Source: a virus. From it: a stretch of DNA of 64,000 nt. The position numbers and the translations under genes were made by a program. Of this stretch, positions 5,966-63,684 are shown piece by piece (within the stretch, counting starts at the first letter, position 1; each line of letters starts with the position of its first letter). Below the pieces are notes generated by a model. It did no database searches. It saw only the letters and a program-made list of their open reading frames with translations, and was not told where the DNA came from. The stretch spans positions 1 to 64,000 of the IMG/VR virus record IMGVR_UViG_3300013004_000031; one strand, given 5' to 3'.

Positions 5966-6370
5966 TCAAGCAAGATATTCTTTCATAATGTCACGAATAA
6001 TCCGTCTTCCTTCCTCATTTGCAGAGTGAACATAGACCTTGATGTTATCATTTGGAGACAATTTATCCTTCAGATACTTGGCACAGTGAATACCAGACTT
6101 TGTTTGGAAATTCTCCCATTCATAATAACCGGGATTCTTGAGAAAATTGATATAATATTTCATGTGTTCCAAGCACAAATCATTGTCAAATGAACAAATG
6201 GATGGAAACCCTCGTTCCTCAATAATCTTCACGAAATCGTTATAATTTCTAACAATTTCCCAATTTCCATTGGATGTTTTGGTCTTATCCAACAGCATCA
6301 CACCCCCGTCATTATATAGAAATGCATCTTTGGGTTGGCGCACATCATCAAGAAATAATAAATAAGACAT
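5966..6370 (-). CDS. Cyclic-phosphate-processing receiver-like domain protein
   Basis: 134 residues. LLFLDDVRQPKD at the N-terminus, ICSFDNDLCLEH near residue 60, SGIHCAKYLKD, and YVHSANEEGRR near residue 115 match the pattern LDDxRxP / SFDxDL / tGxxxAkxl / vHSxNxxG of the single-domain receiver-like family linked to cyclic-phosphate processing. The start codon overlaps the upstream stop (TAATG). Catalytic role inferred from the pattern only. Confidence 0.65.
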   Translation of the reverse strand: MSYLLFLDDVRQPKDAFLYNDGGVMLLDKTKTSNGNWEIVRNYNDFVKIIEERGFPSICSFDNDLCLEHMKYYINFLKNPGYYEWENFQTKSGIHCAKYLKDKLSPNDNIKVYVHSANEEGRRIIRDIMKEYLA

Positions 6371-7185
6371 TATTCAACACCCTCACTAAATTTTTGTTTA
6401 TCTCTAAATTCAGCCACCGATGGGTATCCACCATCAATAACTTTCAATTCCTCTGGATTAATTCCTCGAAATTCCCATACTACCTTCTTTTCAAAGGGGG
6501 ATATTTTGAAATTGGAATGCGCCCTCATCAGAATATCAACGATATCTTCATGTGATAATTCGGGATATATTTTGCTTTTTAATTCTTTGATCTCCCCCGA
6601 TGGCGTGTCCCTAAAAGTATCACCGTAATGAGAAAATTGTTTGGAATCTATGGCAACCCAAAAAATATCATCACCCGCAAAACAATTCTTAATACTTTTC
6701 AATATATTATTATCAATATTTTTAGTATCACACCAAAAAGCAATCAGAGAGACATTCTTACCAGCAGATTTGGATTTAATATTTTTCCAGATTCTTCCAG
6801 AAAATGTGTTGCGTCGAGTATTGCCCATGATCTGATCCTTTTGATTATCATAATAATAGTCAAGATCATCAGAAGTCGCTTCACCACAAACCTTAACAGA
6901 GTAATCTTTTAAAATACTCTTAAATTGTTTAGGGTCTGCTTTGACTTTAGCTAAAGCATTGAAAATAGATGGGTGTGTATTGGAAGTATGAAAGAGTGTC
7001 TTTCCTATGAAAGAAAAAGCTTCTCCCGATTCATATGAATAGGAGTCCCCATCAAAATTAATCTGATCAGGACTAGAATTTTTGGAAGGAATCTTAACGT
7101 TTTCCATTAAAATTACACCTCTTGCTGTAGCTCGCTCCTCAATTATCTTTTGGTAAAGCTCTCGTATGTTCAAATCATCCTTCAT
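6370..7185 (-). CDS. Hypothetical protein, 271 aa
   Basis: Start set at ATG 7185 (MKDDLNIRELYQKIIEER), preceded by GGGAGG; a TTG at 7221 would extend it into the upstream gene. The N-terminal helix ends in IIE/ER, resembling the leader of the late gene at 20897 (LYEEILEE), so it could also carry a capsid-targeting sequence, though no late promoter precedes it. The rest is mixed alpha/beta with FWCDTKNIDN and IFWVAIDSKQ strands. No family recognised. Confidence 0.55.
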   Translation of the reverse strand: MKDDLNIRELYQKIIEERATARGVILMENVKIPSKNSSPDQINFDGDSYSYESGEAFSFIGKTLFHTSNTHPSIFNALAKVKADPKQFKSILKDYSVKVCGEATSDDLDYYYDNQKDQIMGNTRRNTFSGRIWKNIKSKSAGKNVSLIAFWCDTKNIDNNILKSIKNCFAGDDIFWVAIDSKQFSHYGDTFRDTPSGEIKELKSKIYPELSHEDIVDILMRAHSNFKISPFEKKVVWEFRGINPEELKVIDGGYPSVAEFRDKQKFSEGVE

Positions 7186-7486: not shown

Positions 7487-7505
7487 ATTATACTCTAGTT
7501 TTTAA
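7487..7505 (-). promoter_or_regulatory. Promoter of the ACTAGA class for the gene at 7480
   Basis: The minus strand reads TTAAAAACTAGAGTATAAT, then GCTATC and ATG. The AAAAACTAG part also encodes the last codons (K-N-stop) of the upstream gene. Confidence 0.65.
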
Positions 7506-8094
7506 CCATAAAAATCACCACCGTAGGATTTGTGGGATCAACGTTTCCGTTATCATCCACAAAATATGAAATACCGTTTTTCACCGGATATTCTCCCTCC
7601 ATATTCAGCGTTCGATCAATCACGAAACCATTTCTACTGTAAAGCCTGAACAAACCTTCATCCTTGATGTTGCCTTTATCGTCTTGGGTTGCAAAACAGT
7701 CCAATCTTGTGGCTCCCTGTTTGATAGCCTCCTGCACCAGAGCATTACCCGAAGATTCCTGCGAGGAGAACACCGAAACCAATTCATCTTCATCCTTGAT
7801 ACAAAATCCACTGGAATTGTTCTTACCCAAGAAACACTTCATGCGCTGGTAATCTTGAACGGGATAAACACTGAGATTATTCTTGATGTTCTTAAAAAAT
7901 TTGGGATTTACCGTTTTGCGAAATTCATCATTCTTCGTGATATTTGTCAGGGCTTGGAAAAATACCCTACCGCTCACCTGTTGAAAATTATCAGGATTGT
8001 TTGGATCAAGTCTTTGACCCTTTCTTAATTGTTCGGGAGATAATTTGCCAATATCGGTGAATTTTTCCCAAAAAAATTGATAAAACGATTTCAT
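7495..8094 (-). CDS. Putative packaged GNAT-like acetyltransferase
   Basis: 199 residues from a late promoter. The first ten residues, MKSFYQFFWE, align position for position with the T4 internal-protein leader MKTYQEFIAE. The C-terminal half has LVQEAIKQGATRLDCFA, then GLFRLYSRNGFVIDRTLN (the 'LY.r.GF' hallmark of GNAT folds), and ends in a strand VVIFMVKN. I infer an acetyltransferase-like protein packaged in the head and injected, by analogy with T4 Alt. The acetyl-CoA loop (Q/RxxGxG/A) is not obvious, so activity is uncertain. Confidence 0.5.
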   Translation of the reverse strand: MKSFYQFFWEKFTDIGKLSPEQLRKGQRLDPNNPDNFQQVSGRVFFQALTNITKNDEFRKTVNPKFFKNIKNNLSVYPVQDYQRMKCFLGKNNSSGFCIKDEDELVSVFSSQESSGNALVQEAIKQGATRLDCFATQDDKGNIKDEGLFRLYSRNGFVIDRTLNMEGEYPVKNGISYFVDDNGNVDPTNPTVVIFMVKN

Positions 8095-14855: not shown

Positions 14856-14941
14856 CCTTTGAGATGGTTCACGAAGGAACAATAACAAATGAATAAGTGA
14901 TCGCTCTCGCTTTCTATAATTGCAGATGAAGGATTGCTCAT
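14816..14941 (-). pseudogene. Truncated paralogue of the gene at 13212-13499
   Basis: The frame starts ATG 14941 (MSNPSSAIIESESDHLF) and runs 41 codons. Residues 1-30 match the N-terminus of the gene at 13212-13499; after KGE the similarity stops exactly at the TnpB element end, and the frame continues into tnpB antisense sequence to a TAG at 14816. Its ATG overlaps the TGA of the upstream gene (ATGA), so it was once a coupled gene. Cut by the element insertion. Confidence 0.7.
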
Positions 14942-15627
14942 AATTCTATTGTTTCTATGTGAATATTGTTTTCAAAAAGCGGTTGGAAATGACTCCAATT
15001 TTTATGAAATTGATTTAGACCAGAATTGTCAAATAAACCCACTTGATATCTAATACCTTTCAATGGGAATGTGTCCCTATTGATATTTTGGAACTCAATT
15101 GGAGGAGATTTACCATCAAAACGAATATCGATATTTTCATCATATTGTCTCCGCACCATCTCACATAATTGTCGGTTGGAAGAAAAATGGATAACATTTT
15201 TACCGTTGAAAGCTTCCCAAGCAGCCAGCGTCAACAAGAAAATGGATACACCTTTTCGTCTGGTAAAGGTGAGATAATTATACCCTTCAATATAACCACG
15301 AAACATCGTTTTTTGATCATAATTGATCGGATATCCATTAAAATTCTCAAAGAACTTATAGAATTCCCCCGTGGGATTAGGATTATTAGGCTTTGGTGTA
15401 TAGAACTCCCCAAGATATACCGATCCTTCATACGGATTATCATTATTCCATGCCAGAAACAGCATATGAGATATCCTTCGCACGTTATCCCAATCCTTTG
15501 GTTGTTTTTCCGCTGGATAGAATTTCTCAGAGATTTTAGACACTTCGGAGACGAATCGCAATTCCTCCCCCATTACCTTATTGGGGTTGTGTTTCTCGTT
15601 GATGTGTTGTATTTCGTATAATTTCAT
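14938..15627 (-). CDS. Hypothetical protein with degenerate P-loop-like segment, possible head cargo
   Basis: 229 residues. The N-terminus MKLYEIQHINEKHN has an INE match to the (L/I)xE prohead-protease consensus. The central YLTFTRRKGVSIFLLTLAAW and NGKNVIHFSSNRQLCEMVRRQY resemble the Walker A and following strand of a terminase-type ATPase, with GVS in place of GKS/T, so it would not bind ATP normally. LFDNSG occupies the Walker B position. This reading is by eye only. Confidence 0.5.
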   Translation of the reverse strand: MKLYEIQHINEKHNPNKVMGEELRFVSEVSKISEKFYPAEKQPKDWDNVRRISHMLFLAWNNDNPYEGSVYLGEFYTPKPNNPNPTGEFYKFFENFNGYPINYDQKTMFRGYIEGYNYLTFTRRKGVSIFLLTLAAWEAFNGKNVIHFSSNRQLCEMVRRQYDENIDIRFDGKSPPIEFQNINRDTFPLKGIRYQVGLFDNSGLNQFHKNWSHFQPLFENNIHIETIEL

Positions 15628-20140: not shown

Positions 20141-20872
20141 TTATCGGGAAGTCAACTTTGTTCTCCCACCTCTAAGCATGTTACTAGGTTCGTAATCCTT
20201 GGATGTCATGGCGGCAGTCAAAGGATTATCACTATTCTCATCCCCTGTCCAGACCGGATCAACCCAAACATATTGACCATCATCTCGCATCATCACATTA
20301 TCTCCATGCAAATCAGGATTTAAATCAGGCAAATCCCTACGGAGCAGATACCATCCTTCCAGCAGATTATAAACAGCTTTTGGTAAAGATTTGACTTTTG
20401 AAGATAGCTTCATGAATTGCGTTCTATCTTGTATTAATTTTGGATTTTCTTTCAAATGGAAATATAGCATCAAATTATTATCTATTAACCCCAACACATT
20501 AACAGGTGTTGGTTTAAGTCTTTCAATTCTCGCTAAATATTGCTTTGCTTCGTCCTTGTATCGTGTGAATTGCGGGACTACTCTTTGTGGTTTGCCGAAG
20601 AATTTGGGGAAGGATGGGTGAGGATTATCGTGAGCATATCTAGCGAATTTTAAGTAAGGATCATCCCAAGAGAAAACTTTTAGAACATACGGCCACTTGG
20701 GATGGGAATACACGATACCAAACGAACCGGAACCGATGACCTCCCCCCCTGATGCCTCAAATTCTGCAATAAGTTCATCATAGTCCTTATCTGAATTTTC
20801 AGGATTTAACATGAATTCGGTGACAGTATCAAACGCTTCTTTGATTAGGTAAAACTCTGAAAAGGAAATCAT
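20141..20872 (-). CDS. Kinase-fold protein, putative packaged effector
   Basis: 243 residues from a late promoter. The leader MISFSEFYLIKEAF contains IKE, a prohead-protease consensus site, and parallels the T4 leader MKTYQEFIAE. Kinase elements follow in order: glycine loop VIGSGSFGIVY (45-55), lysine K65 (YVLKVF), catalytic loop DLHGDNVM (D187, N192) and D205 (WVDPV, in place of DFG). The set looks catalytically complete. I infer a kinase packaged in the capsid and injected, analogous in purpose to T4 Alt or the T7 kinase. Confidence 0.7.
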   Translation of the reverse strand: MISFSEFYLIKEAFDTVTEFMLNPENSDKDYDELIAEFEASGGEVIGSGSFGIVYSHPKWPYVLKVFSWDDPYLKFARYAHDNPHPSFPKFFGKPQRVVPQFTRYKDEAKQYLARIERLKPTPVNVLGLIDNNLMLYFHLKENPKLIQDRTQFMKLSSKVKSLPKAVYNLLEGWYLLRRDLPDLNPDLHGDNVMMRDDGQYVWVDPVWTGDENSDNPLTAAMTSKDYEPSNMLRGGRTKLTSR

Positions 20873-20896: not shown

Positions 20897-21322
20897 ATGC
20901 TGGAAGATTTGCAACAATTATACGAGGAGATTTTAGAAGAAGGTCGTGTATCAAAACACCAATTTTCAGAAATGACGCTTAAAGAAGCGTATCAAATTTG
21001 TTATAATGTTTTCAAACAATTGGGAGAATCCACTGCTGCAACTTTTAATGTGATGAATTACATCTATCAAAATTTGCCAAATTCGATCAAAACACCAGAA
21101 GTTGAAGAAGAAAAAAGAAAAAATTTCGGAGCATATTTAAGACCGTTTGTGATTGATCTTGTCAACAATAATATAAAAAATATTGATATCGACGAATTAA
21201 AAATGAAAATGGTAGATAAACAAATGATACGAGATTATATTAATCGCCCTCCAACTGGTAGTAGAAGAAAGGGGATAGTCAATCAAATGAATAGACCCCA
21301 AAATAAACAATTACCTATTTAA
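20897..21322 (+). CDS. Putative head-associated late protein with leader
   Basis: 141 residues, helical. The N-terminus MLEDLQQLYEEILEEGRV holds LYE and ILE, both matching the (L/I)xE consensus at residues 8-15. The C-terminus is basic and Pro/Gln-rich (RPPTGSRRKG, RPQNKQ). Late promoter with 5 nt spacing. Probably processed and packaged; no enzymatic fold recognised. Confidence 0.55.
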   Translation: MLEDLQQLYEEILEEGRVSKHQFSEMTLKEAYQICYNVFKQLGESTAATFNVMNYIYQNLPNSIKTPEVEEEKRKNFGAYLRPFVIDLVNNNIKNIDIDELKMKMVDKQMIRDYINRPPTGSRRKGIVNQMNRPQNKQLPI

Positions 21323-21334: not shown

Positions 21335-22747
21335 ATGAGAAATTACGGATTTGATTACTTGGTGGAAAAGGTTCAAGTTTTGTCTGAGATGGCGAAAACT
21401 TCCTCAACAAGACCGGAAAAAAATAAAGAGGTTGCAAACTTTATCAATGTGATTCGACCAGAAATTGGAAAAAAACTGTTTGAAAAATGGAAAGTTCCTG
21501 CAAATGTTAAGTTGTTGAATGATTATGTAACGGAAGCATTATATGAGAAGATTTTTAAAACAACTTTTCAATATACAAGTGTTAATCAATACATTGCAAA
21601 GTTGTGGGAAAAATCTCCTGAATTACAGGATGATTATCTCGATTTCATTGGAACGGGATCAAATGATAGTAATAAACGATCCAAATGGATTATCTCATAC
21701 TTGGCAAATAAAAAACCCAATCTTGCAACTTCCGAAGAATTCTTCAACCAAGTAACCAGTCCTGAATATATTGAAAAATATAAACAAATACTTGAAGATA
21801 GATTAGAATTTAAAAACAGAGCAAAAGGATATGCTACCAGTATTCAAACGAAATATTCCATGTCTGCTAATGATTTTGCAACCATGAAGGGTGAGGTTTG
21901 GCCGATTATTACTAAAATCAATAGAAGAAGCAAAACTTTACTACCTCCCGGAACACTACAAACTCTTCGCAACAAAGAGAGAATCGTGATTGACACAAGC
22001 AATAAAGCAACTTCCGAAGATTTAAAACCTTTGGATGCGTTTATCGAAACTTTAATAGGCTTACGGGATGATCAAGAATTAGTTGAGTATTACAACGTAG
22101 ATGTTAAGGGATTGAGTGGGATCATTAAAACTTTGGAAGATAGATTATCAAATAATAAACCAGTCTCCAAGGAGAAACTTTATGATGCTTTTATCAATAA
22201 ATTTCCCGCAGAAATAAGCGAATATGTTGCGGATGAATATGAACGTGATCTGGAATCCCGTAAAACAAAAGGAGTATCTGAAGAAATGATAGATGACAAA
22301 CGGAAAGCTGTTGAAGATATTCTTGACATATATACTCCAGATTTTCTTAAAAGCGTTGCAACCAAGGGTATTATAACGGAACCGGAAATTGAAATAGTTC
22401 TCAAATGGAAAGAATTGATAAAATCTTCCGATGCTTTGGAAAAACAAGAAGTTTCCGCTGGTAGAAAAGCGGCAGGATTTAGTTCGGCAGAGATTGATAC
22501 ATCCGGTAATTTCTCTGATGTTGGAAAAGCTGCTGATAAAAGATTTTACGCTAAAGAAAAAGAAAGCCCAACTCAAAAACCAAAAAAACCTCGTAAACAA
22601 AAGCAAGAGGATGAAGAAAACGGTGTTATGGGTTATTTCTCCGAGCAAGTTAGAAAAGATAGTCTTCTAAACAATATTGGAGAGTTTAAAGAACGCGGAT
22701 TTAAGAAGCCAGTGAATTATCACCACTGGTTAAGCTTAAATGATTGA
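21335..22747 (+). CDS. Large late protein with leader, putative virion protein
   Basis: 470 residues, mostly helical and charged. The leader MRNYGFDYLVEKVQVLSEMA contains LVE (11) and LSE (18), candidate prohead-protease sites. A Lys/Glu-rich linker (about 415-440) precedes the C-terminal segment (GYFSEQVRKDSLLNNIGEF). Late promoter. It ends overlapping the convergent methyltransferase by 47 nt. Likely a packaged or head-core protein; no family recognised. Confidence 0.55.
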   Translation: MRNYGFDYLVEKVQVLSEMAKTSSTRPEKNKEVANFINVIRPEIGKKLFEKWKVPANVKLLNDYVTEALYEKIFKTTFQYTSVNQYIAKLWEKSPELQDDYLDFIGTGSNDSNKRSKWIISYLANKKPNLATSEEFFNQVTSPEYIEKYKQILEDRLEFKNRAKGYATSIQTKYSMSANDFATMKGEVWPIITKINRRSKTLLPPGTLQTLRNKERIVIDTSNKATSEDLKPLDAFIETLIGLRDDQELVEYYNVDVKGLSGIIKTLEDRLSNNKPVSKEKLYDAFINKFPAEISEYVADEYERDLESRKTKGVSEEMIDDKRKAVEDILDIYTPDFLKSVATKGIITEPEIEIVLKWKELIKSSDALEKQEVSAGRKAAGFSSAEIDTSGNFSDVGKAADKRFYAKEKESPTQKPKKPRKQKQEDEENGVMGYFSEQVRKDSLLNNIGEFKERGFKKPVNYHHWLSLND

Positions 22748-36242: not shown

Positions 36243-36249
36243 TTAAATA
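36243..36249 (+). promoter_or_regulatory. Late promoter -10 box (TTAAATA) for the gene at 36255
   Basis: TTAAATA-GTAAC-ATG (5 nt). On the other strand the same 15 bp give TACTAT with 7 nt to the uvsY ATG, so both directions are served. Confidence 0.65.
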
Positions 36250-36254
36250 GTAAC

Positions 36255-36503
36255 ATGGAATACTCTCGTGTCAAGGATGAAAAGAATATCGCAAATATTT
36301 ATCAACAAATGCTTAATGAGGATATGACAAGCGGTGGTGCGTTTGGTGGTGATATTGCGGGTCATGCTGGAATGGAGAACACGGATTGGTTTGCACCGGG
36401 GGATGCCAGAAACCCGTATGGAATGGGAATCACTACGAGAAGTGGTCAATTGAGTGCGAAAAAAGGTAAGAAACGTAAGAAAAAGCGTGTTCAGAAACAA
36501 TAA
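36255..36503 (+). CDS. Putative internal head protein, 82 aa
   Basis: Start set at ATG 36255 by the late promoter; a longer frame to 36132 lies within uvsY antisense. The N-terminus MEYSRVKDEKNIANIYQQML continues NEDM, giving LNE as a possible cleavage site at residues 20-22. Then a Gly-rich middle and a very basic tail (KKGKKRKKKRVQKQ) suited to DNA binding inside the head. Resembles small internal or core proteins of T4-like phages. Confidence 0.6.
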   Translation: MEYSRVKDEKNIANIYQQMLNEDMTSGGAFGGDIAGHAGMENTDWFAPGDARNPYGMGITTRSGQLSAKKGKKRKKKRVQKQ

Positions 36504-36679
36504 TTTTTGTACATAAGACCAAGCCCGCCCACCACCCCTAATTATATTCGCCATATTGATTTGTCAATAGTGTAATATGAATTATTTTCAAGTTTTTTCA
36601 ATTATTGTTCATCTATTCCCACCCTCCTCCCTATACCTTAACATGACTATTTCAAAAGTCAATACCTTATAATTAATTA

Positions 36680-36704
36680 GCTTATTATTAGATATTGATT
36701 AGAT
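36680..36704 (+). repeat. Direct repeat, copy 1
   Basis: Contains GCTTATTATTAGATATTGAT followed by TAGAT; copy 2 differs by one base and one added T. Confidence 0.7.
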
Positions 36705-36798
36705 ATTAACTATGATTAAAGATAACTAAAGAAAGAAACAAAGAAAAAAAAATTAATTCTAATAAATACAATCAATCAGCTTACCAAAGCGTACCAAC

Positions 36799-36824
36799 GC
36801 TTATCATTAGATATTGATTTAGAT
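36799..36824 (+). repeat. Direct repeat, copy 2
   Basis: Contains GCTTATCATTAGATATTGAT followed by TTAGAT, 119 nt from copy 1. Confidence 0.7.
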
Positions 36825-36843
36825 TAATTATAATTAAATATAA

Positions 36844-37314
36844 ATGGAAAAAATTTTGGAAACCGCCCCACAAATCACCACTTGGAAGAATTTCCCAACC
36901 GATACGGAAGGTGTTGTGGGATTTGTTTACCTCATCCGCAACAATCATCCAGAATCTACACGCAAATATTACATCGGTAAGAAACAGCTTCTCAAGCGTG
37001 TGAAGCGCAAACCATTGAAAGGTAAGACACGCAATCGCATTTCATTTGTGGACAATGATGTGGAGAAGTATTGGGGATCGTCCAAAGAACTCCTGAATGA
37101 TATTGAGAAATATGGGATTGAGCATTTTTCAAGGGAAGTGATAGAGGTGTGTTACTCAAAATTCCATATGACGTATTCGGAACTACTGTGGCAGATCAAA
37201 ACCAATTCATTAATGGATCAAAGATTCTACAATGGCATTCTAAATGTTAGGATTTCGAAGATACCCAAAGGATTTGTTGACATTGAACGTGATCCTGCTA
37301 TTTTGAAGCTGTGA
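36844..37314 (+). CDS. GIY-YIG-type endonuclease
   Basis: 156 residues. GFVYLIRNNHPESTRKYYIGKK carries the GIY-YIG core (VYLI ... YYIGKK), followed by KRVKRKPLKGKTRNR, KYWGSSKELLNDIEKYG and FSREVIEVCYSK, with acidic Glu in EVIEV. A TTAAATA box lies only 3 nt before the ATG. It may be a free-standing homing or repair nuclease; similar proteins occur in other large phages. Confidence 0.75.
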   Translation: MEKILETAPQITTWKNFPTDTEGVVGFVYLIRNNHPESTRKYYIGKKQLLKRVKRKPLKGKTRNRISFVDNDVEKYWGSSKELLNDIEKYGIEHFSREVIEVCYSKFHMTYSELLWQIKTNSLMDQRFYNGILNVRISKIPKGFVDIERDPAILKL

Positions 37315-37811
37315 CAAGGATTCAATTTCAAAATAGAAAGATCATCGACATTGATGAGATATTTCGGGATACGAATGGAAATTTCGCAATCCTTTTGGAA
37401 TCCCTTGGATTGACCACCACCTTTGATTTCTCCAAGCGCAATAACCAAAAATTATACACCCACGAGTTCATCAAGACCACAACACAATTCCTGAAATACA
37501 ACACCCACACGGATTTCATTTTCTTTTCCAATGCTCTTACCAAGGACAAGTTCCGCAATCGACTTTTGGCTAAAATCCGGCGAATCTTCAAGATAAGGAT
37601 TTGGGAAGCCAATTATGATTTGGAGCATTTAAAATACCTGATTGATATTCGGGACTGTTCCACCATCTCTGGATTGGAAATGGCATTTTCGGATCGCAAA
37701 CCCCCATCGTTCCGCAAGATTTCCAAATATCTGGAAAAGGAAGGTCTGACATTCCTAAATGAAAAATACTTTCAAGATGTGGTAAACAAAATGATAATTT
37801 TCAATCATTAA
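37311..37811 (+). CDS. Hypothetical protein, 166 aa
   Basis: Starts with GTG overlapping the upstream stop (GTGA). Basic, mixed alpha/beta: NRKIIDIDEIFRDTNGNFAIL and a C-terminal region ending KYFQDVVNKMIIFNH. It is coupled to the GIY-YIG gene. No family recognised. Confidence 0.55.
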   Translation: MTRIQFQNRKIIDIDEIFRDTNGNFAILLESLGLTTTFDFSKRNNQKLYTHEFIKTTTQFLKYNTHTDFIFFSNALTKDKFRNRLLAKIRRIFKIRIWEANYDLEHLKYLIDIRDCSTISGLEMAFSDRKPPSFRKISKYLEKEGLTFLNEKYFQDVVNKMIIFNH

Positions 37812-37812
37812 T

Positions 37813-37819
37813 CTAAATA
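37813..37819 (+). promoter_or_regulatory. Late promoter -10 box (CTAAATA) for the gene at 37825
   Basis: CTAAATA-GTATT-ATG, 5 nt spacer. The box includes the stop region of the upstream gene. Confidence 0.7.
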
Positions 37820-37824
37820 GTATT

Positions 37825-38274
37825 ATGAGCAAATTTCTTGAGATTTTAGAACAACACGATCCTGCCAACCAATCCAAGATGGATGCGGCATTTCAGGCGA
37901 AATTCTTCCTTTATGAACAAGAAGTCCCTTTCAGTTCCAAAGGTTCCCAAATCATCCTTCATGCGGAACAAGGGGATATTATTTTGGAAGCTGTGGGTAT
38001 GCAAGCCCGTCAAGATATGGGCGATCTCCCAGAGGAAGAACAACAAACAGTTGGTTCGTATGATATTGACGGAGAAGTTGAAAAATTGGGCGCAAAAGCA
38101 TTAAGTCTTGGCCCAATGGGTAAGCTTCTTGGGACGAAGGCACAGAAAGCGAAAGCGGCAGCTAAAGAGCGCGATAATGTTGCGGGTCAAGCGGTAGAAC
38201 AGTATAAAAACAACACCAACAGCCTAAGAAAAGCGGTTGCAAAATCCAAAGCGAAAAAATTCAACGTTGTTTAA
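37825..38274 (+). CDS. Putative internal head protein with leader, 149 aa
   Basis: The leader MSKFLEILEQHD ends in ILE (7-9), a prohead-protease consensus site. The rest is Ala/Gln/Lys-rich and helical, with a basic C-terminus (LRKAVAKSKAKKFNVV) that could bind DNA. Late promoter; first of a set of six adjacent leader-bearing genes. No enzymatic domain recognised. Confidence 0.6.
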   Translation: MSKFLEILEQHDPANQSKMDAAFQAKFFLYEQEVPFSSKGSQIILHAEQGDIILEAVGMQARQDMGDLPEEEQQTVGSYDIDGEVEKLGAKALSLGPMGKLLGTKAQKAKAAAKERDNVAGQAVEQYKNNTNSLRKAVAKSKAKKFNVV

Positions 38275-38275
38275 C

Positions 38276-38680
38276 ATGAAATCTAAAACCTTACAATTAA
38301 TCGCAAGATACCAAACCATCTTGGAACAAGATGAGCAAAATCCTGAAGCTGGTATGGAACAAGCACCACCCCAAGAAGGACAATCTCCTGCACCAGAGAT
38401 GCCTCCTGAAGAACCTCAAGAGACAATCCCCCTGAGTTCTCCCGCCGAAGTGCGTTACATGGAAGATGTGGTTCTAGCTGCTCTCATGGAACCCCCCAGT
38501 GGCACGGATCGCATTGCTTTGGAAAACATCCTAGATTTGCTACGCAGACCTGATAATATCAAGAGAATTCAAGCATCGGGACAAACCGCAAAGGATTTGT
38601 ATCAATCAAAAGTTCTTCCAATTATCCGTCCTGCACAACAAGGACAGGACATTCGGGATAATTTAGATCAGATGGACTAA
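38276..38680 (+). CDS. Putative internal head protein with leader, 134 aa
   Basis: Start set at ATG 38276, just after the upstream TAA. Leader MKSKTLQLIARYQTILEQDE ends in ILE (15-17). A Pro/Glu/Gln-rich linker (20-55) and a helical C-terminal domain (YMEDVVLAALMEPPSGTDRI) follow. No own late box; it probably shares the promoter at 37813. Confidence 0.6.
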   Translation: MKSKTLQLIARYQTILEQDEQNPEAGMEQAPPQEGQSPAPEMPPEEPQETIPLSSPAEVRYMEDVVLAALMEPPSGTDRIALENILDLLRRPDNIKRIQASGQTAKDLYQSKVLPIIRPAQQGQDIRDNLDQMD

Positions 38681-38683
38681 ATA
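38677..38683 (+). promoter_or_regulatory. Late promoter -10 box (CTAAATA) for the gene at 38689
   Basis: CTAAATA-ATATT-ATG, 5 nt spacer, overlapping the upstream stop. Confidence 0.7.
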
Positions 38684-38688
38684 ATATT

Positions 38689-39147
38689 ATGAAATTCAAA
38701 GGAGAAGAAAATGCCGTGCTTTGGGAATCCTATACTGGAAGAAATTTTAAACGAGAAGACGCAGAAGAAGACTTCATGAGCGATGATCTTGAAGACGATT
38801 TTTCTGATGATGGTATTGACGATTTTGACGATGACATGGATTTTGGCGATGATCTTGACGATGATCTTGGAGGCGGGGAAGCACAAGGAATGGTCATGCA
38901 AATTGATCCAATTGCTCCCGTGGAATCGCATGAGGTAAATGAGGTTCTGGTATCGGAACTCAAGAAGCTTTCGGAATATGGTAAGCGTCTTTATGACATG
39001 AAAGATTCCGCTGAATTTGAAGATTGGATGGTTTCAGCAATCACCATTGCATCTACTTACGTTTCCGATGTTTGGCACCGTCTGGATGCCAAGGCTGATT
39101 TCGCCAATACGGGGTTTGAGCAAGCCGATGATTTCGAACAATTTTAA
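38689..39147 (+). CDS. Putative internal head protein with leader, 152 aa
   Basis: Leader MKFKGEENAVLWESYTG with LWE at 11-13. An extremely acidic stretch of Asp/Glu (25-70) is followed by a helical C-terminal domain (LVSELKKLSEYGKRLYDM). The leader matches that of the next gene (K-x-EEN-x3-WES). The acidic region recalls prohead core proteins of T4 (gp67). Late promoter. Confidence 0.6.
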   Translation: MKFKGEENAVLWESYTGRNFKREDAEEDFMSDDLEDDFSDDGIDDFDDDMDFGDDLDDDLGGGEAQGMVMQIDPIAPVESHEVNEVLVSELKKLSEYGKRLYDMKDSAEFEDWMVSAITIASTYVSDVWHRLDAKADFANTGFEQADDFEQF

Positions 39148-39148
39148 T

Positions 39149-39415
39149 ATGATATCCAAATCAGAAGAAAATGAAATTATATGGGAATCGTTGAAAACAG
39201 ATTCTTCTCAAGATCATTTGTCTCTTCTTATGGACTCCAAGCACATGATCGAACATATGATTAAAACGATTAATAATTATTCAATGTTCCATAGCACCCC
39301 CGATAAACCTAAACCAAAATTCCCAAATATTGGGGAGATTTCATCTGCACATAAAAACGTAAAACGGATTTACGAAAGCATGGGCGTAGATGTTAATGAA
39401 AAACCAGTAATTTAA
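39149..39415 (+). CDS. Small late protein sharing the leader of its neighbour, 88 aa
   Basis: Start set at ATG 39149, one nt after the upstream stop. MISKSEENEIIWESLKTD: IWE at 11-13 and the same EEN-x3-WES pattern as the gene before. The C-terminal part has PKPKFPNIGEISSAHKNVKRIYESMG. Coupled to the upstream gene. Probably packaged. Confidence 0.6.
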   Translation: MISKSEENEIIWESLKTDSSQDHLSLLMDSKHMIEHMIKTINNYSMFHSTPDKPKPKFPNIGEISSAHKNVKRIYESMGVDVNEKPVI

Positions 39416-39419
39416 ATGA

Positions 39420-39878
39420 ATGAGAAGTTTCAAGCAATTCTTTGTGGAAAAAAACATCCTCGGTTTGGAAGAGGATATCGTAGTTGATGGTGTCGGAACC
39501 ATATCCGCCAAATTGGATACGGGTAATGGTGCTTACAATGTTTTACACGGAGAAGACCTTGAGTTCGGAAAAGACAGACAAACCAACCAACCCATAGTAA
39601 GATTTACAACCATGAATTCCATACGCTTAGAAAAACCAGTCAAAGATACCATCACTATTAATCTAGGGGCTGGTAATACGGAAGAACGTCCAATCTGTTT
39701 ATTTGATTGTGCAATTGGGGGTAAGAGATTCCCCAATACGCCATTTTCAATTGGTAATAGAGCGGATAACGATCATAAGGTTTTAATTGGTAAGGGATTT
39801 ATAGCGAAGCAGTTGGATGCGCTTGTCGATGTTGCCCTTAAAAATGTGGCAGATCAAAATTTAACAGCAGATGTCTAA
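39420..39878 (+). CDS. Aspartic-protease-fold protein with capsid leader
   Basis: 152 residues. The leader MRSFKQFFVE parallels T4 MKTYQEFIAE. Then GVGTISAKLDTGNGAYNVLH carries the retropepsin-like DTG (D33), with ICLFDCAIGGKRFPNTPFS and HKVLIGKGFI matching the C-terminal part of the RimK-associated aspartyl-protease family (DTGA ... LIGRxFL). I infer a protease packaged in the head. An overlapping ATG at 39416 is out of frame. Confidence 0.65.
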   Translation: MRSFKQFFVEKNILGLEEDIVVDGVGTISAKLDTGNGAYNVLHGEDLEFGKDRQTNQPIVRFTTMNSIRLEKPVKDTITINLGAGNTEERPICLFDCAIGGKRFPNTPFSIGNRADNDHKVLIGKGFIAKQLDALVDVALKNVADQNLTADV

Positions 39879-40554
39879 TAAAATATCACAAAAAGAACTT
39901 TTGAGTGAGGGATTTTGGGATGCTTTTGGAAAAGCAAAAGAAAAACTCAGAGAGAAATTTCCTAGAACTACTAGATTGGCATCTTTAGCTGGTTCTGTTG
40001 CTGATGTGGTAGCTCCAGAAATAATGCAACCTATTAGAAAGCAAAAAGAATGGAGAGATTCCGCCAGTGAAAAAGCTAAAAGAGCTTCAATGACTCAAGA
40101 TCAAATTACGTTGGATTACATTCATGAAGATGGGTTCCACGAAGAGCGAGGTGAAAAGCTCAATTGGAATCCGAAACGAAACGCCGATGGGACATACACA
40201 GCAACTATTAAAGTGGGGGAGTTGGTAAACGATCCACAGACGGGTGATCCTAAATTGGGTAGAACATTCTCTGCTGATAAATCAACATATATTGTTAAAT
40301 TTGATCCGAAAAATAGGACAGCCAAAAGAGTTAGAGGACCAGACAGACAGCTTGCTTCCAGTACCGACCAAATTAGGTATGCATTGGAAGATGCTGGTTA
40401 TAATACTGTGGGTGGTATTAAAATTACTGGAAATAATCGAGATGGTACTATAAATGTGGACGCATATATATTAACTAATATTGGTGGGAATCAACAACGG
40501 ACTTTACAACATTTTATTTATAATCCTTCCACGGAACAAATATCCATTCCTTGA
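39871..40554 (+). CDS. Late protein with leader, 227 aa
   Basis: Leader MSNKISQKELLSEGFWD has LSE at 11-13. A basic helical segment (FGKAKEKLREKFPRTTRLA) and a beta-rich C-terminal domain (TATIKVGELVNDPQTGDP; TYIVKFDPKNRTAK) follow. Overlaps the upstream gene by 8 nt. Likely a packaged protein; function unknown. Confidence 0.55.
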   Translation: MSNKISQKELLSEGFWDAFGKAKEKLREKFPRTTRLASLAGSVADVVAPEIMQPIRKQKEWRDSASEKAKRASMTQDQITLDYIHEDGFHEERGEKLNWNPKRNADGTYTATIKVGELVNDPQTGDPKLGRTFSADKSTYIVKFDPKNRTAKRVRGPDRQLASSTDQIRYALEDAGYNTVGGIKITGNNRDGTINVDAYILTNIGGNQQRTLQHFIYNPSTEQISIP

Positions 40555-58203: not shown

Positions 58204-58224
58204 TATCAAAGTCCATTCATGGGA

Positions 58225-58231
58225 CTAAATA
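58225..58231 (+). promoter_or_regulatory. Late promoter -10 box (CTAAATA) for the gene at 58237
   Basis: CTAAATA-ATACT-ATG, 5 nt spacer; it fixes the start at 58237 rather than the in-frame ATG at 58219. Confidence 0.7.
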
Positions 58232-58236
58232 ATACT

Positions 58237-59997
58237 ATGGGTGGAAAGTATCATAGTAATAAAGATGTTATAGATCATTTCAAAAGAATACACTGTGATA
58301 AATACGATTATTCATTAGTTCATTATACTGGTAATCTAAATTTAGTCGATATCATATGTCAAAAACATGGAGTATTTAAGCAGTCTCCAAAAAAACATAA
58401 AATAGGTCATGGGTGTCATAAGTGTAATACCCAAAGAAAGCGAACTGAAGAGGAGGCAATTGAAGAGTTCAAAATAAAACACGGTAATAAATACGATTAT
58501 TCGGATTTGGAATATAAAAACGGTTCCAGTCTGATTAAAATAGGATGCCCAACTCATGGGTGGTTTTATCAAAAAGCCAGTGAACATAAAATCGGTTATG
58601 GGTGTGCTAAATGTGCCAATCACGAGAAAAGTCCCCCATATGAAGAATGGTTAAATTCGTGTGTTGAAAGACATAATAATTATTATGATTATTCTATTTC
58701 AAAATACGAAACATTGTCTAAATCAGTTAGAATAATTTGCCCAAAACATGGAATTTTCACACAAAAGGCGGGAACACATAGAAATGGTAGTGGTTGTAAA
58801 AAATGTGGGGATGATAGAAAAAGTTTGAAATATCAACAATTATTTACCACGGAATCTTATATAGAAAAGTTAGAAGAAAAACATGGTGATAAGTATGATT
58901 ATAGTAAGGTTAATTATACCACTTTAAAAAATCCTGTCACTCTTACATGTCCCAAACATGGAGACTTTACAAGATTTCCCCAAAATTTATTAAAAGGTGG
59001 TGGATGTGACAAATGTTTAGATGAAATCAGAGTTAAAAAATCTCTAACAAAAGTTAAAAAACATTTTAAACATAATAATTTCGAGTTGGTAATAGATGAA
59101 AGCAAGTTCAAGGGATTCAATAATGAGATATTTTTAACATGTTCAAAGCATGGAGAATTTGTAAGATTTCTTGATATGAATATTTTTGTTTTAAATCATC
59201 CGTGTTTAAAATGTGGGATGAAGATATCAAAATTGGAACAACGAGTGTCCGAAACGTTGGACGATCTTGGAATATCACACATCCAACACACTAGATATAA
59301 AGATGATAACGGTAAAATATACGAAATTGATATATTAACCCCTGATTTGAGTATAGGGTTTGAGATTAACGGACTTAGATATCATGGAGAAGTTATGGGT
59401 AAGGATTCTGACTATCATAGGTGGAAAACCGAAGAATGTTATAAACGAGGTATAAAATTGACACACATTTATGAAAATGAGATTATAGGATCAGACCACT
59501 TCAAACACAAAATTTTCAGAGAATTGGGATTGAGAACCCAAGCAAATGACTCGTGTGTATTTGAATATGTTGGAGATGATTCCATAAATGATTTTATAAT
59601 CAATAATCACCCATTGGGGTTGATGAAAAATTGTATTAATATGGTTTGTTGTAATGATGGAGATATATATGGTTGTATATCGTTTAAAGATAACACTGTA
59701 TTAAGAGTAGCCAATAAACACGATGTTGATATGTCTAAAGTGTTTCAATCTATGATAAGACAGTATATGAATGATCATGAATTAAATACAATAGTAAGTA
59801 ATGTGTTATTTGATTGGGATGATCTTACACTATTTGAAGAATCAGGATTTATCGTCAAAGATACCATCGAACCAGTTTGTTGGAAATTTATCAACGCGAA
59901 ACATGATAAGATTTACACCCACGATGAAGAATTATTGGCTGATAATGTTGATAAATTTTGGGATACTGGTGGATATTTGATGGAATTTTTGATTTAA
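58237..59997 (+). CDS. Zinc-repeat PD-(D/E)XK-type endonuclease, likely homing
   Basis: 586 residues. Five repeats of about 65 residues (HxxKYDYS ... I.C..HG.F.Q....H..G.GC.KC) each hold a Cys pair and a His-Gly, as in DNA-binding DUF723 repeats. Then KLEQRVSETLDDLGISHIQHTRY, IYEIDILTPDLSIGFEINGLRYHGE and YHRWKTEECYKRGIKLTHIYENE form a VSR-like PD-(D/E)XK nuclease. The rest resembles an accessory domain. It lies between genes 4 and 21, as mobile endonucleases often do. Confidence 0.7.
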   Translation: MGGKYHSNKDVIDHFKRIHCDKYDYSLVHYTGNLNLVDIICQKHGVFKQSPKKHKIGHGCHKCNTQRKRTEEEAIEEFKIKHGNKYDYSDLEYKNGSSLIKIGCPTHGWFYQKASEHKIGYGCAKCANHEKSPPYEEWLNSCVERHNNYYDYSISKYETLSKSVRIICPKHGIFTQKAGTHRNGSGCKKCGDDRKSLKYQQLFTTESYIEKLEEKHGDKYDYSKVNYTTLKNPVTLTCPKHGDFTRFPQNLLKGGGCDKCLDEIRVKKSLTKVKKHFKHNNFELVIDESKFKGFNNEIFLTCSKHGEFVRFLDMNIFVLNHPCLKCGMKISKLEQRVSETLDDLGISHIQHTRYKDDNGKIYEIDILTPDLSIGFEINGLRYHGEVMGKDSDYHRWKTEECYKRGIKLTHIYENEIIGSDHFKHKIFRELGLRTQANDSCVFEYVGDDSINDFIINNHPLGLMKNCINMVCCNDGDIYGCISFKDNTVLRVANKHDVDMSKVFQSMIRQYMNDHELNTIVSNVLFDWDDLTLFEESGFIVKDTIEPVCWKFINAKHDKIYTHDEELLADNVDKFWDTGGYLMEFLI

Positions 59998-60012: not shown

Positions 60013-60684
60013 ATGGCATTAAAACTAAAGCTGATGTACAATGATCCCACCAACTTCGATGGATTGGAAATTGTCGAAGAACAGACTAATCGTGGAAGTG
60101 GTAGTAATCTATATGTGCAGGGGGTTTACCTTGGTTCGGAGATTAATAAGAACGGGAGAATCTATCCAGAGCATGAGCTTGATCGTGAAATTAATCGGTA
60201 TCTGAATGAGATGGTTGTAACTAAACGATCACTTGGGGAATTAAATCATTCCAATACCAGTGAGGTAAATCCAGAGCGTGCATGTCACCTTGTTACTGAA
60301 CTCAGGAAAGATGGTAAGGCATGGGTTGGGAAATCAAAGATTCTCTCTGGAGAAGGCATGATATGTGGAAATATTGTTCGCGGACTCATCAATAATGGAG
60401 TTTCCCTCGGTATGAGTACTAGATCGCTTGGATCGTTGCGTGAAGCGTCTGGTCATAAGGTTGTGGAAAACATGCATTTGGTTGCAATCGACTGTGTTGC
60501 CGATCCATCATATCCAACAGCTTTTGTTGACGGTATTCTTGAAAGTAAAAGTTGGACTATTACCGAAAACGGTGATTACGAACAAATCTACGAGGACTTT
60601 GGCAAAGCTCTAAAAACACTTCCAAAACACGATGTTGATAATTATCTTCGCGCACAGATCATAAAGTTTATCCAACAAATCTAA
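60013..60684 (+). CDS. 21: Prohead protease, T4 gp21-like
   Basis: 223 residues (T4 gp21 has 212). NLYVQGVYLGSEINKNGRIYPEHEL, SLGELNHSNTSEVNPERACH (His79) and GVSLGMSTRSLGSLREA (Ser about 135) are the serine protease core. It cuts scaffold, capsid and internal proteins after (L/I)xE during head maturation, and so is the likely processor of the leader-bearing proteins elsewhere in the window. Confidence 0.95.
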   Translation: MALKLKLMYNDPTNFDGLEIVEEQTNRGSGSNLYVQGVYLGSEINKNGRIYPEHELDREINRYLNEMVVTKRSLGELNHSNTSEVNPERACHLVTELRKDGKAWVGKSKILSGEGMICGNIVRGLINNGVSLGMSTRSLGSLREASGHKVVENMHLVAIDCVADPSYPTAFVDGILESKSWTITENGDYEQIYEDFGKALKTLPKHDVDNYLRAQIIKFIQQI

Positions 60685-60692: not shown

Positions 60693-61229
60693 ATGGGCAA
60701 AACATATAAAGATTTGAAGAAACAGGGCAAGCACGTTTTCGATGGACCGGAAGTGAAACAGCGCAAGAATTTTGCCCCCGCAACCAAAACGGAAAAGCCG
60801 AAGAAGGGCAAAGGATCGTATAATCGCGGGAACGCTTTTGATGAGGATGAGGAATCCGGTGATGATAAGAGAACCAAACGTATTAAACAGGCTGAATCCA
60901 TGGGTTACAAGAAATTACCACAACATGATGCGGTTTGGACACATAAAGGTATGAAAATTTATGGAGTTAATAATCTCCCACCATTGAAAGATGAAAAAAA
61001 TGATGAGGATGAGGAAAAAGCCTGTTGGAAAGGTTACGAAAAGAAAGGCACCAAGAAAAAGGGTGGAAAGACTGTCAACAATTGTGTGAAGGAATCAACC
61101 GATCTCTCCAAATTCATTGAGGCTATCATGACCAATGATCATGCCCAAGCTCATAAACAACTCAAGGATGCTGTGAATTTCAAAATCCAACAGAGAATTG
61201 CTCAAGAAATCGACAATCCTTTGTTCTGA
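60693..61229 (+). CDS. Prohead core protein-like, 178 aa
   Basis: Lys/Glu/Gly-rich N-terminal two-thirds (RKNFAPATKTEKPKKGKG; DEDEESGDD), the segment KACWKGYEKKGTKKKGGKTVNNC seen in marine phage proteins, and a C-terminal LSKFIEAIMTNDHAQAHKQL, KDAVNFKIQQRIAQE that resembles the end of T4-like core proteins (gp67/gp68 region). It lies between genes 21 and 22, where T4 also has core genes nearby. Confidence 0.55.
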   Translation: MGKTYKDLKKQGKHVFDGPEVKQRKNFAPATKTEKPKKGKGSYNRGNAFDEDEESGDDKRTKRIKQAESMGYKKLPQHDAVWTHKGMKIYGVNNLPPLKDEKNDEDEEKACWKGYEKKGTKKKGGKTVNNCVKESTDLSKFIEAIMTNDHAQAHKQLKDAVNFKIQQRIAQEIDNPLF

Positions 61230-61266: not shown

Positions 61267-62154
61267 ATGAAGAAAAAAAGCACGAACCTTTTCTCGGAAG
61301 ACATCCAAAAAAGTCTGGGACTCAGCGATGAATCCATCAAGGCAATTCAGGAATCCCTTGAATCCAAGATTGATCTGGCCGTTGAAGCTGCCCTTTTGGA
61401 ACAGGATGAAGTATATGCCTCCAAACTCAAGACCCTGATGACATCCGTTGATAAGGATCGCACGGTCAAGATGAAAAAGATCATGGAAGCTTTTGATAGA
61501 GATAAGACCGCAAAGCTGGTCAAGGTTATCAAAAAGTATGAGCGCGAACAGAACGGCGATCTTCTCAAGTTCAAAAAACAACTTACGGAATCCGTTAGTG
61601 CTTTCCTTGACGAGTTCATTGATGAATCCATTCCAACCAAAGATATCAAGGAAGCTGTCAAGAACAAGACAGCCATGAATGTTCTGGAAAATCTCAAAAA
61701 GGTCTTTGCAATCGATCTTGCTGTCATGAAGGAATCCGTATCTGGGGCAATCGTGGAAGGTAAGAGTGAAATCGACAAGCTCCGCAATAAGAATGCTGAA
61801 CTTGAAAAGAACGTTCGCTTCCTCACCGAATCCAAGAACAAGTCGGAAGTCAAACTTTTCCTTGAAGGCAGAACTTCCAAGTATCCTGAAACCAAAAAGA
61901 ATTTTGTGAAGAAGGCTTTGGGAGACAAGTCCCTGCAATTCATTCAGGATAACTTTGATTACACCGTTCGCCTCTTTGAAAAACAAGAGAAAAAGCAACT
62001 GGAAACCATCAAGGAAGAAGCTGTTCAAAACCGCAAGCACAAGCCCGATTTCGTAAAAGAACAAAAAATTGTTACTGAAAAGGTAAATAATAATACGGAT
62101 GAAGAATCTGATCCTTATCTGGATGTTTTGAAACAACAAACATTCCGTAGGTAA
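61267..62154 (+). CDS. 22: Prohead core scaffold, T4 gp22-like
   Basis: 295 residues (T4 gp22 has 269), almost all helix and strongly charged. MKKKSTNLFSEDIQKSLGLS, a series of coiled-coil segments (60-220) and a C-terminal region VEGKSEIDKLRNKNAELEKNVR match the scaffold type. It contains several (L/I)xE sites for gp21. The start is set by the late promoter; a longer in-frame start at 61198 is upstream of it. Directly before gene 23 as in T4. Confidence 0.82.
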   Translation: MKKKSTNLFSEDIQKSLGLSDESIKAIQESLESKIDLAVEAALLEQDEVYASKLKTLMTSVDKDRTVKMKKIMEAFDRDKTAKLVKVIKKYEREQNGDLLKFKKQLTESVSAFLDEFIDESIPTKDIKEAVKNKTAMNVLENLKKVFAIDLAVMKESVSGAIVEGKSEIDKLRNKNAELEKNVRFLTESKNKSEVKLFLEGRTSKYPETKKNFVKKALGDKSLQFIQDNFDYTVRLFEKQEKKQLETIKEEAVQNRKHKPDFVKEQKIVTEKVNNNTDEESDPYLDVLKQQTFRR

Positions 62155-62217: not shown

Positions 62218-63684
62218 ATGAATAATCTACCATCTACTGATATCCAAGGCTCCAAGATGCAACAAGCAGTTGCCAAGTGGCGTAAGGTTCTCGATTATAG
62301 CTCGGACTCGATCCCAGCTATTCGGAACGAACACGTTTACAAGACCACTGCAATGCTCCTTGAGAACCAAGAACAGTGGTGCTACCAAGAATCGAATACT
62401 GCTGCCTCCGGTGGTGTGTTCGGTGCAACGACTTCCATTGGCAACGGTATCGCTAACAGCGACTCCTATGCTACTGGTGATGCTCGTCTGCCAAAGATTC
62501 TGATTCCTATGATTCGACGCACTTTCCCTGAATTGATTTCCAATGAGATCGTAGGCGTTCAGCCTATGGGTGGTCCTGTTGGTCTTGCTTTCGCTCTTCG
62601 TTACGCCTATCAAGGTGATACTCTGAGCGATAGTAGCATCGACGGCAAGACCTCTGGAGGTGGAACTGGTTCTAGCTTCGGTAATCAGCTTAAAGCTGCT
62701 TACGATGGTAGTACTGGTCTTCCAGACACCGAACTTGGTTATCAACTTCTGGACACACGTTTCACTGGCACATCTGCTGGATTCCTTTCGGGTAACACCG
62801 AACACTGGACATTCGCAGATCAAGACCGTGGTATTGCTGAACTTTTGAGCAACTACGAATTGACGGGTAAAATCCCTCAAATCGAACTCAAGTTTGAAAA
62901 GACCGCTGTTGAGGCCGGAACACGTAGATTAGCTACCCGCTGGTCGGTTGAGTTGGAACAAGACATCAAAAACATGAACGGTATCGATATCGATGGAGAA
63001 CTTACGAATGCAATGTCGTATGAAATCCAAGCCGAAATCGACCGCGAAGTTGTGATGCGTATGATCCAAACTGCCTTCAATGCTGGTGCTGGCGCAGGTT
63101 TCTCCATCTGGAGTCCTGTTAGTGCGGATGGACGTTGGACTGCTGAACGGAATCTTACCTTCTATCAACGCCTTATTATCGAAAGTGGTCGTATGGCTGC
63201 TCGTAACCGTAGAGGTGCCGCTAACTTTGTTATCGCCACTCCTCGTGTTTGCAGCATCCTCGAAATGCTTCCTGACTTTAAGGTTTACGAAATCAATGGC
63301 ACAGTCTCGACTGCTGGTGTTGGTATCGCAAAAGTTGGTACTGTTGGTAGCCGCTGGACGGTTTATCGTGATACTCGGACTGAAGTTCAGAATTCCTCGC
63401 TCTATAGCCCTAACTACTACTCTGGTCAAACCAGTGGTGTGGAATATGCGCTGTTGGGTTACAAGGGTTCTGAATACTATGATACTGGTCTGATATACTG
63501 TCCGTATATCCCGATCATGGTGCAAAGAACGATTGGACCAAATGATTTCGCTCCTCGTGTGGGTCTTATGACTCGTTACGGGATTGTGAACAACATTTTT
63601 GGTGCATCGCTCTATTACCACCTTATCATCGTAAAGGGTCTTGGTACTGCGTTTACACCGGGGTCGGTTTCAACCTACCTCTAA
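62218..63684 (+). CDS. 23: Major capsid protein, T4 gp23-like
   Basis: 488 residues (T4 gp23 has 521). LPKILIPMIRRTFPELISNEIVGVQPM, GPVGLAFALRYAY, and IEKTAVEAGTRRLATRWSVELEQDIKNMNGIDIDGEL-like segments are hallmark gp23 features. The N-terminal 49-60 residues, ending LLE|NQ, are probably removed by gp21. It forms the head shell hexamers. No clear late box lies directly upstream; it may be read from the gene 22 promoter. Confidence 0.97.
   Translation: MNNLPSTDIQGSKMQQAVAKWRKVLDYSSDSIPAIRNEHVYKTTAMLLENQEQWCYQESNTAASGGVFGATTSIGNGIANSDSYATGDARLPKILIPMIRRTFPELISNEIVGVQPMGGPVGLAFALRYAYQGDTLSDSSIDGKTSGGGTGSSFGNQLKAAYDGSTGLPDTELGYQLLDTRFTGTSAGFLSGNTEHWTFADQDRGIAELLSNYELTGKIPQIELKFEKTAVEAGTRRLATRWSVELEQDIKNMNGIDIDGELTNAMSYEIQAEIDREVVMRMIQTAFNAGAGAGFSIWSPVSADGRWTAERNLTFYQRLIIESGRMAARNRRGAANFVIATPRVCSILEMLPDFKVYEINGTVSTAGVGIAKVGTVGSRWTVYRDTRTEVQNSSLYSPNYYSGQTSGVEYALLGYKGSEYYDTGLIYCPYIPIMVQRTIGPNDFAPRVGLMTRYGIVNNIFGASLYYHLIIVKGLGTAFTPGSVSTYL

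Follow-up and report, generated by a model that had tools for sequence, protein, structure and literature searches.

The 64-kb sequence considered here (the window) is part of a 121.8-kb virus record, IMG/VR IMGVR_UViG_3300013004_000031. Judged by its predicted genes, the window phage is T4-like, with a gp23-type capsid, a gp21-type prohead protease, a head-closure protein and a tail-sheath stabiliser. An earlier note on this sequence listed thirteen proteins with leaders resembling capsid-targeting sequences and proposed that they form a large cargo set carried in the head. The listed open reading frames and N-termini are present as described. They were analysed together with gene-called, whole or nearly whole genomes of relatives (77-207 kb). 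Below, φ denotes a hydrophobic residue and ↓ the presumed cleavage point. The candidate leader carriers of the window are the following.

39420-39878, plus strand: retropepsin-like protein, leader MRSFKQFFVE↓K (F4, F7, F8, E10, exact geometry of the T4 capsid-targeting sequence); PF05618 (Zn_protease), 33.5 bits against a gathering cut-off of 27, 4.7e-8.
7495-8094, minus strand: 199-residue protein, leader MKSFYQFFWE↓; late box 5 nucleotides before the ATG.
20141-20872, minus strand: kinase-like protein, 12-residue leader MISFSEFYLIKE↓A; phrog_15752, 1.1e-7; late box.
20897-21322, plus strand: second-form leader MLEDLQQLYEEILEE↓G, by pattern; late box.
6370-7185, minus strand: second-form leader MKDDLNIRELYQKIIEE↓R, by pattern; missed in the earlier note.
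36255-36503, plus strand: 82-residue protein, leader ..NIANIYQQMLNE↓, then a copy of the capsid arm (SGGAFGGDIAGHAGMENTDWFAPGDARNP) and a Lys/Arg-rich tail; family hidden Markov model (HMM).
3586-4002, plus strand: leader MANKFHAKFLKILQE↓A, by pattern, and acidic body; late box.
37825-38274, plus strand: leader MSKFLEILEQ↓ (relatives MSKFLTILEE↓, MNKFLKIIEE↓), by pattern; late box.
38276-38680, plus strand: weak leader candidate ..ARYQTILEQ↓D; sole support, (I/L)(I/L)EQ kept in relatives.
38689-39147, plus strand: short-form leader ..EENAVLWE↓S, acidic body; distant relatives have ..LIAE↓AY or ..LLSE↓AY.
39149-39415, plus strand: short-form leader MISKSEENEIIWE↓S, by pattern.
39871-40554, plus strand: short-form leader ..KELLSE↓GFWD; kept in relatives and in the unrelated families 159 and 628.
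21335-22747, plus strand: provisional leader MRNYGFDYLVEKVQVLSE↓M; Glu-11 lost in one relative, [LI]xE near residue 19 kept.

Genes 7495, 20141 and 39420 are strong candidates for the T4-type leader, and 20897 and 36255 for the second form; 3586 and 37825 have the form (K)FxxφLx[E/Q], and 38276 and 21335 are weak candidates. The key residues of the T4 leader (4, 7, 8 and 10) are matched exactly in 7495 and 39420, with Q10 in 37825 and with E12 in 20141; the other window carriers keep the spacing of the core at another distance from Met. One listed protein, 14938-15627 (minus strand), was rejected: it does not fit the patterns, has no late box, and its sole non-identical homologue has a different N-terminus. 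This homologue (G003:136406-136942) begins with the signal-peptide-like MKRRTFLGALGALFLPTVAVA. The list was also incomplete, missing 6370 and at least three carriers beyond the window: 91753-93276 (minus strand), one starting at 90988 (plus strand) and one in 86338-86739 (plus strand). Two further observations concern individual families. Orthologues of 37825 (G003:110475-110939 and G005:98699-99163) have the leader twice in tandem (MNKFLKIIEEHDP...KKSKFLEILEQYDP). A conserved late protein, G000:99401-99769 with its orthologues, starts ..LQQIYQEMALSN, which is leader-like without the Glu; this copy is short (122 vs 284 residues).

The earlier definition of the leader, a segment of 9-22 residues usually ending in (L/I)xE, could not be upheld. 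With Glu at residues 9-22, the motif occurs 46 times in the whole genome and 37.9 occurrences are expected from protein interiors (p=0.12); a list built on it alone would thus be mostly noise. The alignment of MKSFYQFFWE and MRSFKQFFVE with the T4 internal-protein leader MKTYQEFIAE is real and significant. Mutagenesis of T4 IPIII assigned residues 4 and 7 to targeting, and 8 and 10 to processing (PMC9026906). The corresponding pattern M..[FYW]..[FYW]φ.[E/Q] was found at 17 of 2,051 start Mets and at 3 of 5,855 internal ones (odds ratio 16, p=5e-8, seven families), homologues not being independent in this count.

A genome-wide profile search, proposed in the earlier note as a check, gave a similar picture. 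Only the 39420 family, with 15 distinct leaders, was used to build the profile, and scores of at least 8 were taken as matches. It produced 53 start-region matches in 15 other, unrelated families and none at 8,191 internal Mets. When it was applied to 100 kb of T4, which was not in the training set, the top three hits were exactly IPII, IPIII and IPI. The second form, [ILF][FY]xx[ILMV][LIMV]xE in the first 28 residues, was seen 29 times with 3.2 expected (9-fold, 16 families, p=3e-14). Its spacing to the Glu is that of the T4 form, from which it differs only in the distance from Met. A short form, φ(L/I)xE↓[AGS], is seen in 38689, 39149 and 39871. The general pattern φ-xx-φ-φ-x-E is enriched merely 1.5-1.8 fold in the whole genome set, and therefore the stricter forms were used.

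These counts bear on the possibility that the N-termini are ordinary amphipathic helices in which (L/I)xE occurs by chance, with no common function. It would account for the bare motif being at chance level and for doubtful list members such as 14938 and 21335. It does not account for the 9-16 fold enrichment of the strict patterns at true starts, the zero profile matches at internal Mets, the recovery of the T4 internal proteins without training on them, or the independent virion data given below. We regard this explanation as highly improbable; the findings on the T4-type and second forms largely refute it there, and 38276, 21335 and 14938 remain candidates for chance.

One body may carry different leaders. 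The 7495 body occurs with a T4-type or a second-form leader, MKSFYQFFWE↓AFSDLGKLSP in G003 vs MKLTQKDQSEIANLYSEILVE↓AFSDLGKLSP in G004, the late box confirming both starts. The junction of the swap lies directly after the Glu, from which we infer that the leader is removed by cleavage at this point. A CCA/poly(A)-polymerase-like body (PF01743, 5.7e-23) has MKSFKNFYTE↓Q in G004 and MIRFHKLYRQLMRE↓ in G001, followed by Y(V/I)EDFD; family 659 has MISFHEYFLIRE↓A or MNEFDKLFEKVLTE↓G. In the 36255 family, NIYQQMLNE↓D, IFLYYLHE↓D, TFKEYFIKLLE↓D and other leaders precede a common (M/I/V)TxG region. Conversely, one leader, MISF(S/H)E(F/Y)(Y/F)LI(K/R)E↓A, is found on two unrelated bodies, 20141 and one in G005. 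Some bodies that bear a leader in the genomes studied are without one in cyanophages, as in S-PM2 and S-CAM9, where the DUF6267 protein begins at the body; thus the leader looks like an add-on.

The leader genes share a putative late-promoter box with the head genes. The box (C/T)TAAATA was found within 12 nucleotides of called ATGs 17 times in the genome, with 0.7 expected, mostly at exactly 5 nucleotides; late mRNAs would therefore be leaderless or nearly so. The earlier statement that most carriers have late promoters agrees with this, as 8 of the 13 listed genes have the box 4-8 nucleotides before the ATG. The listed genes at about 38-40 kb that have no box of their own follow further downstream in that run of genes. 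In the cargo cluster the boxes are as follows.

36243-36249, plus strand: TTAAATA, 5 nucleotides before the 36255 ATG.
37813-37819, plus strand: CTAAATA, 5 nucleotides before the 37825 ATG.
38677-38683, plus strand: CTAAATA, 5 nucleotides before the 38689 ATG.

At the family level, the box precedes 19 of 32 leader families and 63 of 833 others (odds ratio 18, p=6e-13; for called starts only, odds ratio 8.7, p=3e-19). Besides leader genes it marks the sheath, tube, fibre and scaffold genes. Late expression together with the head genes is thereby supported. The closeness of the box to the ATG also suggests that the 5' ends of these mRNAs may be constrained, and the conserved N-termini could then be a signal for translating or expressing late genes and not an address at the protein level. 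However, the structural late genes with the box have no leaders, and what is conserved is a hydrophobic pattern with varied residues at a varied distance from Met. We give such a signal very little credence.

The bodies are diverse. Three enzyme folds had been suggested (kinase, aspartic protease and acetyltransferase), of which the protease was confirmed by Pfam. The 39420 family has 104 relatives in viral contigs, nearly all of which keep the leader pattern and D[TS]GNG; the catalytic DTGNG/DSGNG is seen in each of the 40 relatives listed. A kinase-like fold is suggested for 20141 by sequence motifs and a PHROG match: it has a GSGSFGIVY loop, K65, D187..N192 and D205, invariant in close relatives; its structure model (pLDDT 43) is unusable. 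The acetyltransferase assignment of 7495 was not established. The Pfam GNAT score is 15 bits vs a cut-off of 26, and a Foldseek search of PDB with a model of pLDDT 60 gave no match at E<=0.001, the best matches, at 0.17 and above, being mostly GNAT. A relative of the 7495 body forms the C-terminal part of a VG15 minor head protein in Microbacterium phage UtzChips, an arrangement that, to judge from the similarity, is another way of putting this domain into heads. At related loci the same leader is also found on nucleotidyltransferases and DUF6267 proteins.

Independent data come from the virions of cultured cyanophages. In S-CREM2, 52 of 219 proteins were detected by mass spectrometry (MS) (PMC10665884, Table 3). 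The profile and the geometry pattern were both fixed before this comparison. Five of six matches to the T4-geometry pattern are MS-detected, vs 52 of 219 overall (p=0.003; for non-structural proteins alone p=1.7e-4), and the profile of the 39420 family ranks gp136, gp154, gp14 and gp6, all MS-detected, first to fourth of the 219. MS-detected proteins with a leader include the SAM hydrolase (MKDFDSFLEE↓), gp13 (MKDLHSFLTE↓), an APH/ChoK-like kinase (VKRFDAFLTE↓), a cytidylyltransferase (MKNFSSFLTE↓A) and gp136 (MQTFSMFFSE↓). The NMNAT from the S-SCSM1 virion (PMC9602691) starts MKSFLQFLKE↓A. A separate case is the Cas9-like S-CREM2 gp12 (L221:7704-10313, minus strand), also MS-detected, whose N-terminal region contains RFASFMAE↓A, possibly a targeting sequence further from Met.

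The leaders might target the prohead core and be cut there on proteins that serve head assembly, without delivery to the host. The T4 core proteins gp67, gp68 and gp22 also have cleavable or LxE-bearing N-termini, and enzyme signatures are missing from several bodies that are small, acidic or basic (38689, 37825, 36255). For scaffolds, bodies like those of kinases, proteases and nucleotidyltransferases would be odd, and similar enzymes are found in mature cyanophage virions (PMC10665884, PMC9602691). We consider a purely structural role unlikely.

The genes that would process and receive such proteins are the following.

60013-60684, plus strand: gp21-type prohead protease, presumed leader-cleaving enzyme; PF03420, 3.6e-30; phrog_207, 3.1e-47.
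60693-61229, plus strand: basic protein adjoining the protease, presumed core protein; late box; C-terminus T4 gp67-like by eye.
61267-62154, plus strand: presumed scaffold in the gp22 position, by gene order and composition; late box.
62218-63684, plus strand: major capsid protein (MCP) gp23; PF07068, 1.4e-83; match to T4 gp23.

The gp21-like protease of the earlier note is therefore present, and this family occurs together with a gp23-type capsid in the genome. Alignment of relatives gives WC[YFV][QE]E↓[SAG]N as the candidate MCP cleavage site. Among the matches listed, MCP identity to isolates is at most 34%, cyanophages being nearest; a DNA-level search of isolates gave no match. The C-terminus FIEAIMTNDHAQAHKQLKDAV.. 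of the 60693-61229 product resembles T4 gp67 LIEAIKSNDLVAARKLFAEAM.. by eye. Two homing endonuclease genes were observed, a SegE-like GIY-YIG gene within the cargo cluster (36844-37314) and an HNH-type gene (58219-59997) between the head-closure and protease genes.

The 36255 protein combines a leader with a piece of the capsid. After the leader, SGGAFGGDIAGHAGMENTDWFAPGDARNP matches the segment of its own MCP directly past the presumed cleavage (SGGVFGATTSIGNGIANSDSYATGDARLP, 62404-62508), and a Lys/Arg-rich tail follows. The family HMM matches 7 of 7 related MCPs (E 1e-9 to 6e-7). The arm scores z=8.0 against its own MCP and 0.2 against that of S-CREM2; conversely, the arms of S-CREM2 gp160 and SSCSM1_97, each of which has been reported from virions (PMC10665884, PMC9602691), score z=16.0 and 15.3 against the S-CREM2 MCP and about 0 against the window MCP. 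The arm thus tracks the capsid sequence of its lineage and may dock in the capsid sites of that arm or compete for them. The N-fist of T4 is made up of the N-terminal residues of gp23* and touches four subunits once expansion has taken place (PMC9958956); by analogy, we hypothesise docking of the arm copy in the N-fist sites. Similarity to the MCP pro-region (KWxxVLDYxDxxxPxLxEFxRLYxATLxENxE, E about 0.025) is seen in small proteins encoded at G000:100866-101087, outside the window, and G003:60984-61373, which are possibly another scaffold-binding mimic.

In our view, leaders of the T4-type and second forms are very likely to be capsid-targeting sequences. That they form an enlarged T4-type internal-protein route, with 10-15 carriers detected per genome, seems likely to us with good confidence, and most carriers are probably delivered to the host, as T4 internal proteins are. 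Accordingly, the proposal of capsid-targeting-like leaders on a large cargo set stands on N-terminal enrichment, leader exchange, late-box association and cyanophage virion proteomes, while some individual members and the (L/I)xE criterion do not stand. On 100 kb of T4 the same detector finds three true carriers and one false one and misses Alt, so the statement that the set is far larger than that of T4 fits as a prediction.

Several observations weigh against this reading. N-terminal replacement is not significantly commoner in leader families (3 of 10) than in other late families (6 of 37), and thus the exchange argument lies in the kind of segment and the junction, not in frequency. Nor are leaders faster-evolving on average (identity 0.71 over the first 12 residues vs 0.63 for the body). 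Support for the short form comes mainly from two families, and some carriers (90988, 37825, 99401) have K, Q or S instead of Glu. The MCP has no (L/I)xE at the T4 cleavage position, so the specificity of the window protease may differ from that of T4. The authors of the S-CREM2 and S-SCSM1 studies caution that the enzymes may be carry-over in CsCl preparations (PMC10665884, PMC9602691). Core binding, cleavage, packaging and injection in the uncultured window phage are extrapolated from T4.

The proposed scheme is as follows. Late in infection, a set of otherwise unrelated proteins would be made, each with a short N-terminal leader having the core φ(-6)xxφ(-3)φ(-2)xE(0). The common form has this core starting four residues from Met (M..F..FF.E), and in the second form the Glu is about 13-27 residues in ((I/L)Y..φφ.E). 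The hydrophobic face of the leader would bind the prohead core, so that the protein is built into the prohead, and the gp21-type protease (60013) would cut after the Glu, removing the leader. The mature protein would stay in the DNA-filled head and enter the next host with the DNA. There the cargo probably acts early in infection, by modifying proteins or metabolites or inhibiting defence.

Such a route resembles that of T4 IPI, IPII, IPIII and Alt in the 10-residue leader with hydrophobic or aromatic residues 4, 7 and 8 and Glu 10, in the presence of a gp21-type protease and gp23 MCP, in late expression and in non-homologous bodies. It differs in the 10-15 carriers per genome, in the second, longer leader form able to replace the first on the same body, and in a cargo including retropepsin-like, kinase-like and nucleotidyltransferase-like proteins; also, the window phage is known from sequence alone. 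The virion kinase, cytidylyltransferase/NMNAT and SAM hydrolase of S-CREM2 and S-SCSM1 likewise have T4-type leaders, there on MS-detected enzymes; however, those papers proposed no loading signal and left carry-over possible (PMC10665884, PMC9602691). The ejection proteins of SPN3US also have N-terminal propeptides cut by a T4-gp21-like protease and are retained in the head and ejected, but the propeptides are 111-130 residues long, unlike the short exchangeable leaders here (PMC7411985). In MuF/VG15 head proteins with C-terminal effector domains (polyvalent proteins, PMC5512222), to which the 7495 body is related via UtzChips, effector domains are also loaded into heads, there as covalent fusions to a structural protein and here by a leader that would be cleaved off.

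The suggestion of an undescribed system does not hold: the capsid-targeting sequences of T4 are classical, and it has been proposed that T4-like phages load varied proteins by means of them (PMC9026906). As far as the literature searched shows, what is new is the scale, the second form that is interchangeable with the first, the presence of enzymes in the cargo, and the link to virion enzymes of cyanophages that had been left unexplained, as well as the apparent copying by 36255 of the post-cleavage arm of its own capsid protein.

Taken together, there is about an even chance that a general head-loading code, with swappable signals, is common to T4-like phages, which would explain the kinases, nucleotidyltransferases, SAM hydrolase and even Cas9-like nuclease in cyanophage virions, and that a widespread small basic cargo with a copy of its own phage's capsid arm (36255, gp160, SSCSM1_97) occupies the capsid sites of that arm or competes for them, its basic tail holding DNA. 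The capsid-arm copy of 36255 suggests an unrecognised class of head protein. The leaders would also be small modules of natural origin with which proteins can be loaded into phage heads, and the leader rule gives a testable route for cyanophage virion enzymes that have been seen repeatedly and doubted as contamination. With a sequence rule predicting head-borne proteins, many hypothetical proteins of environmental T4-like phages become candidate injected effectors.

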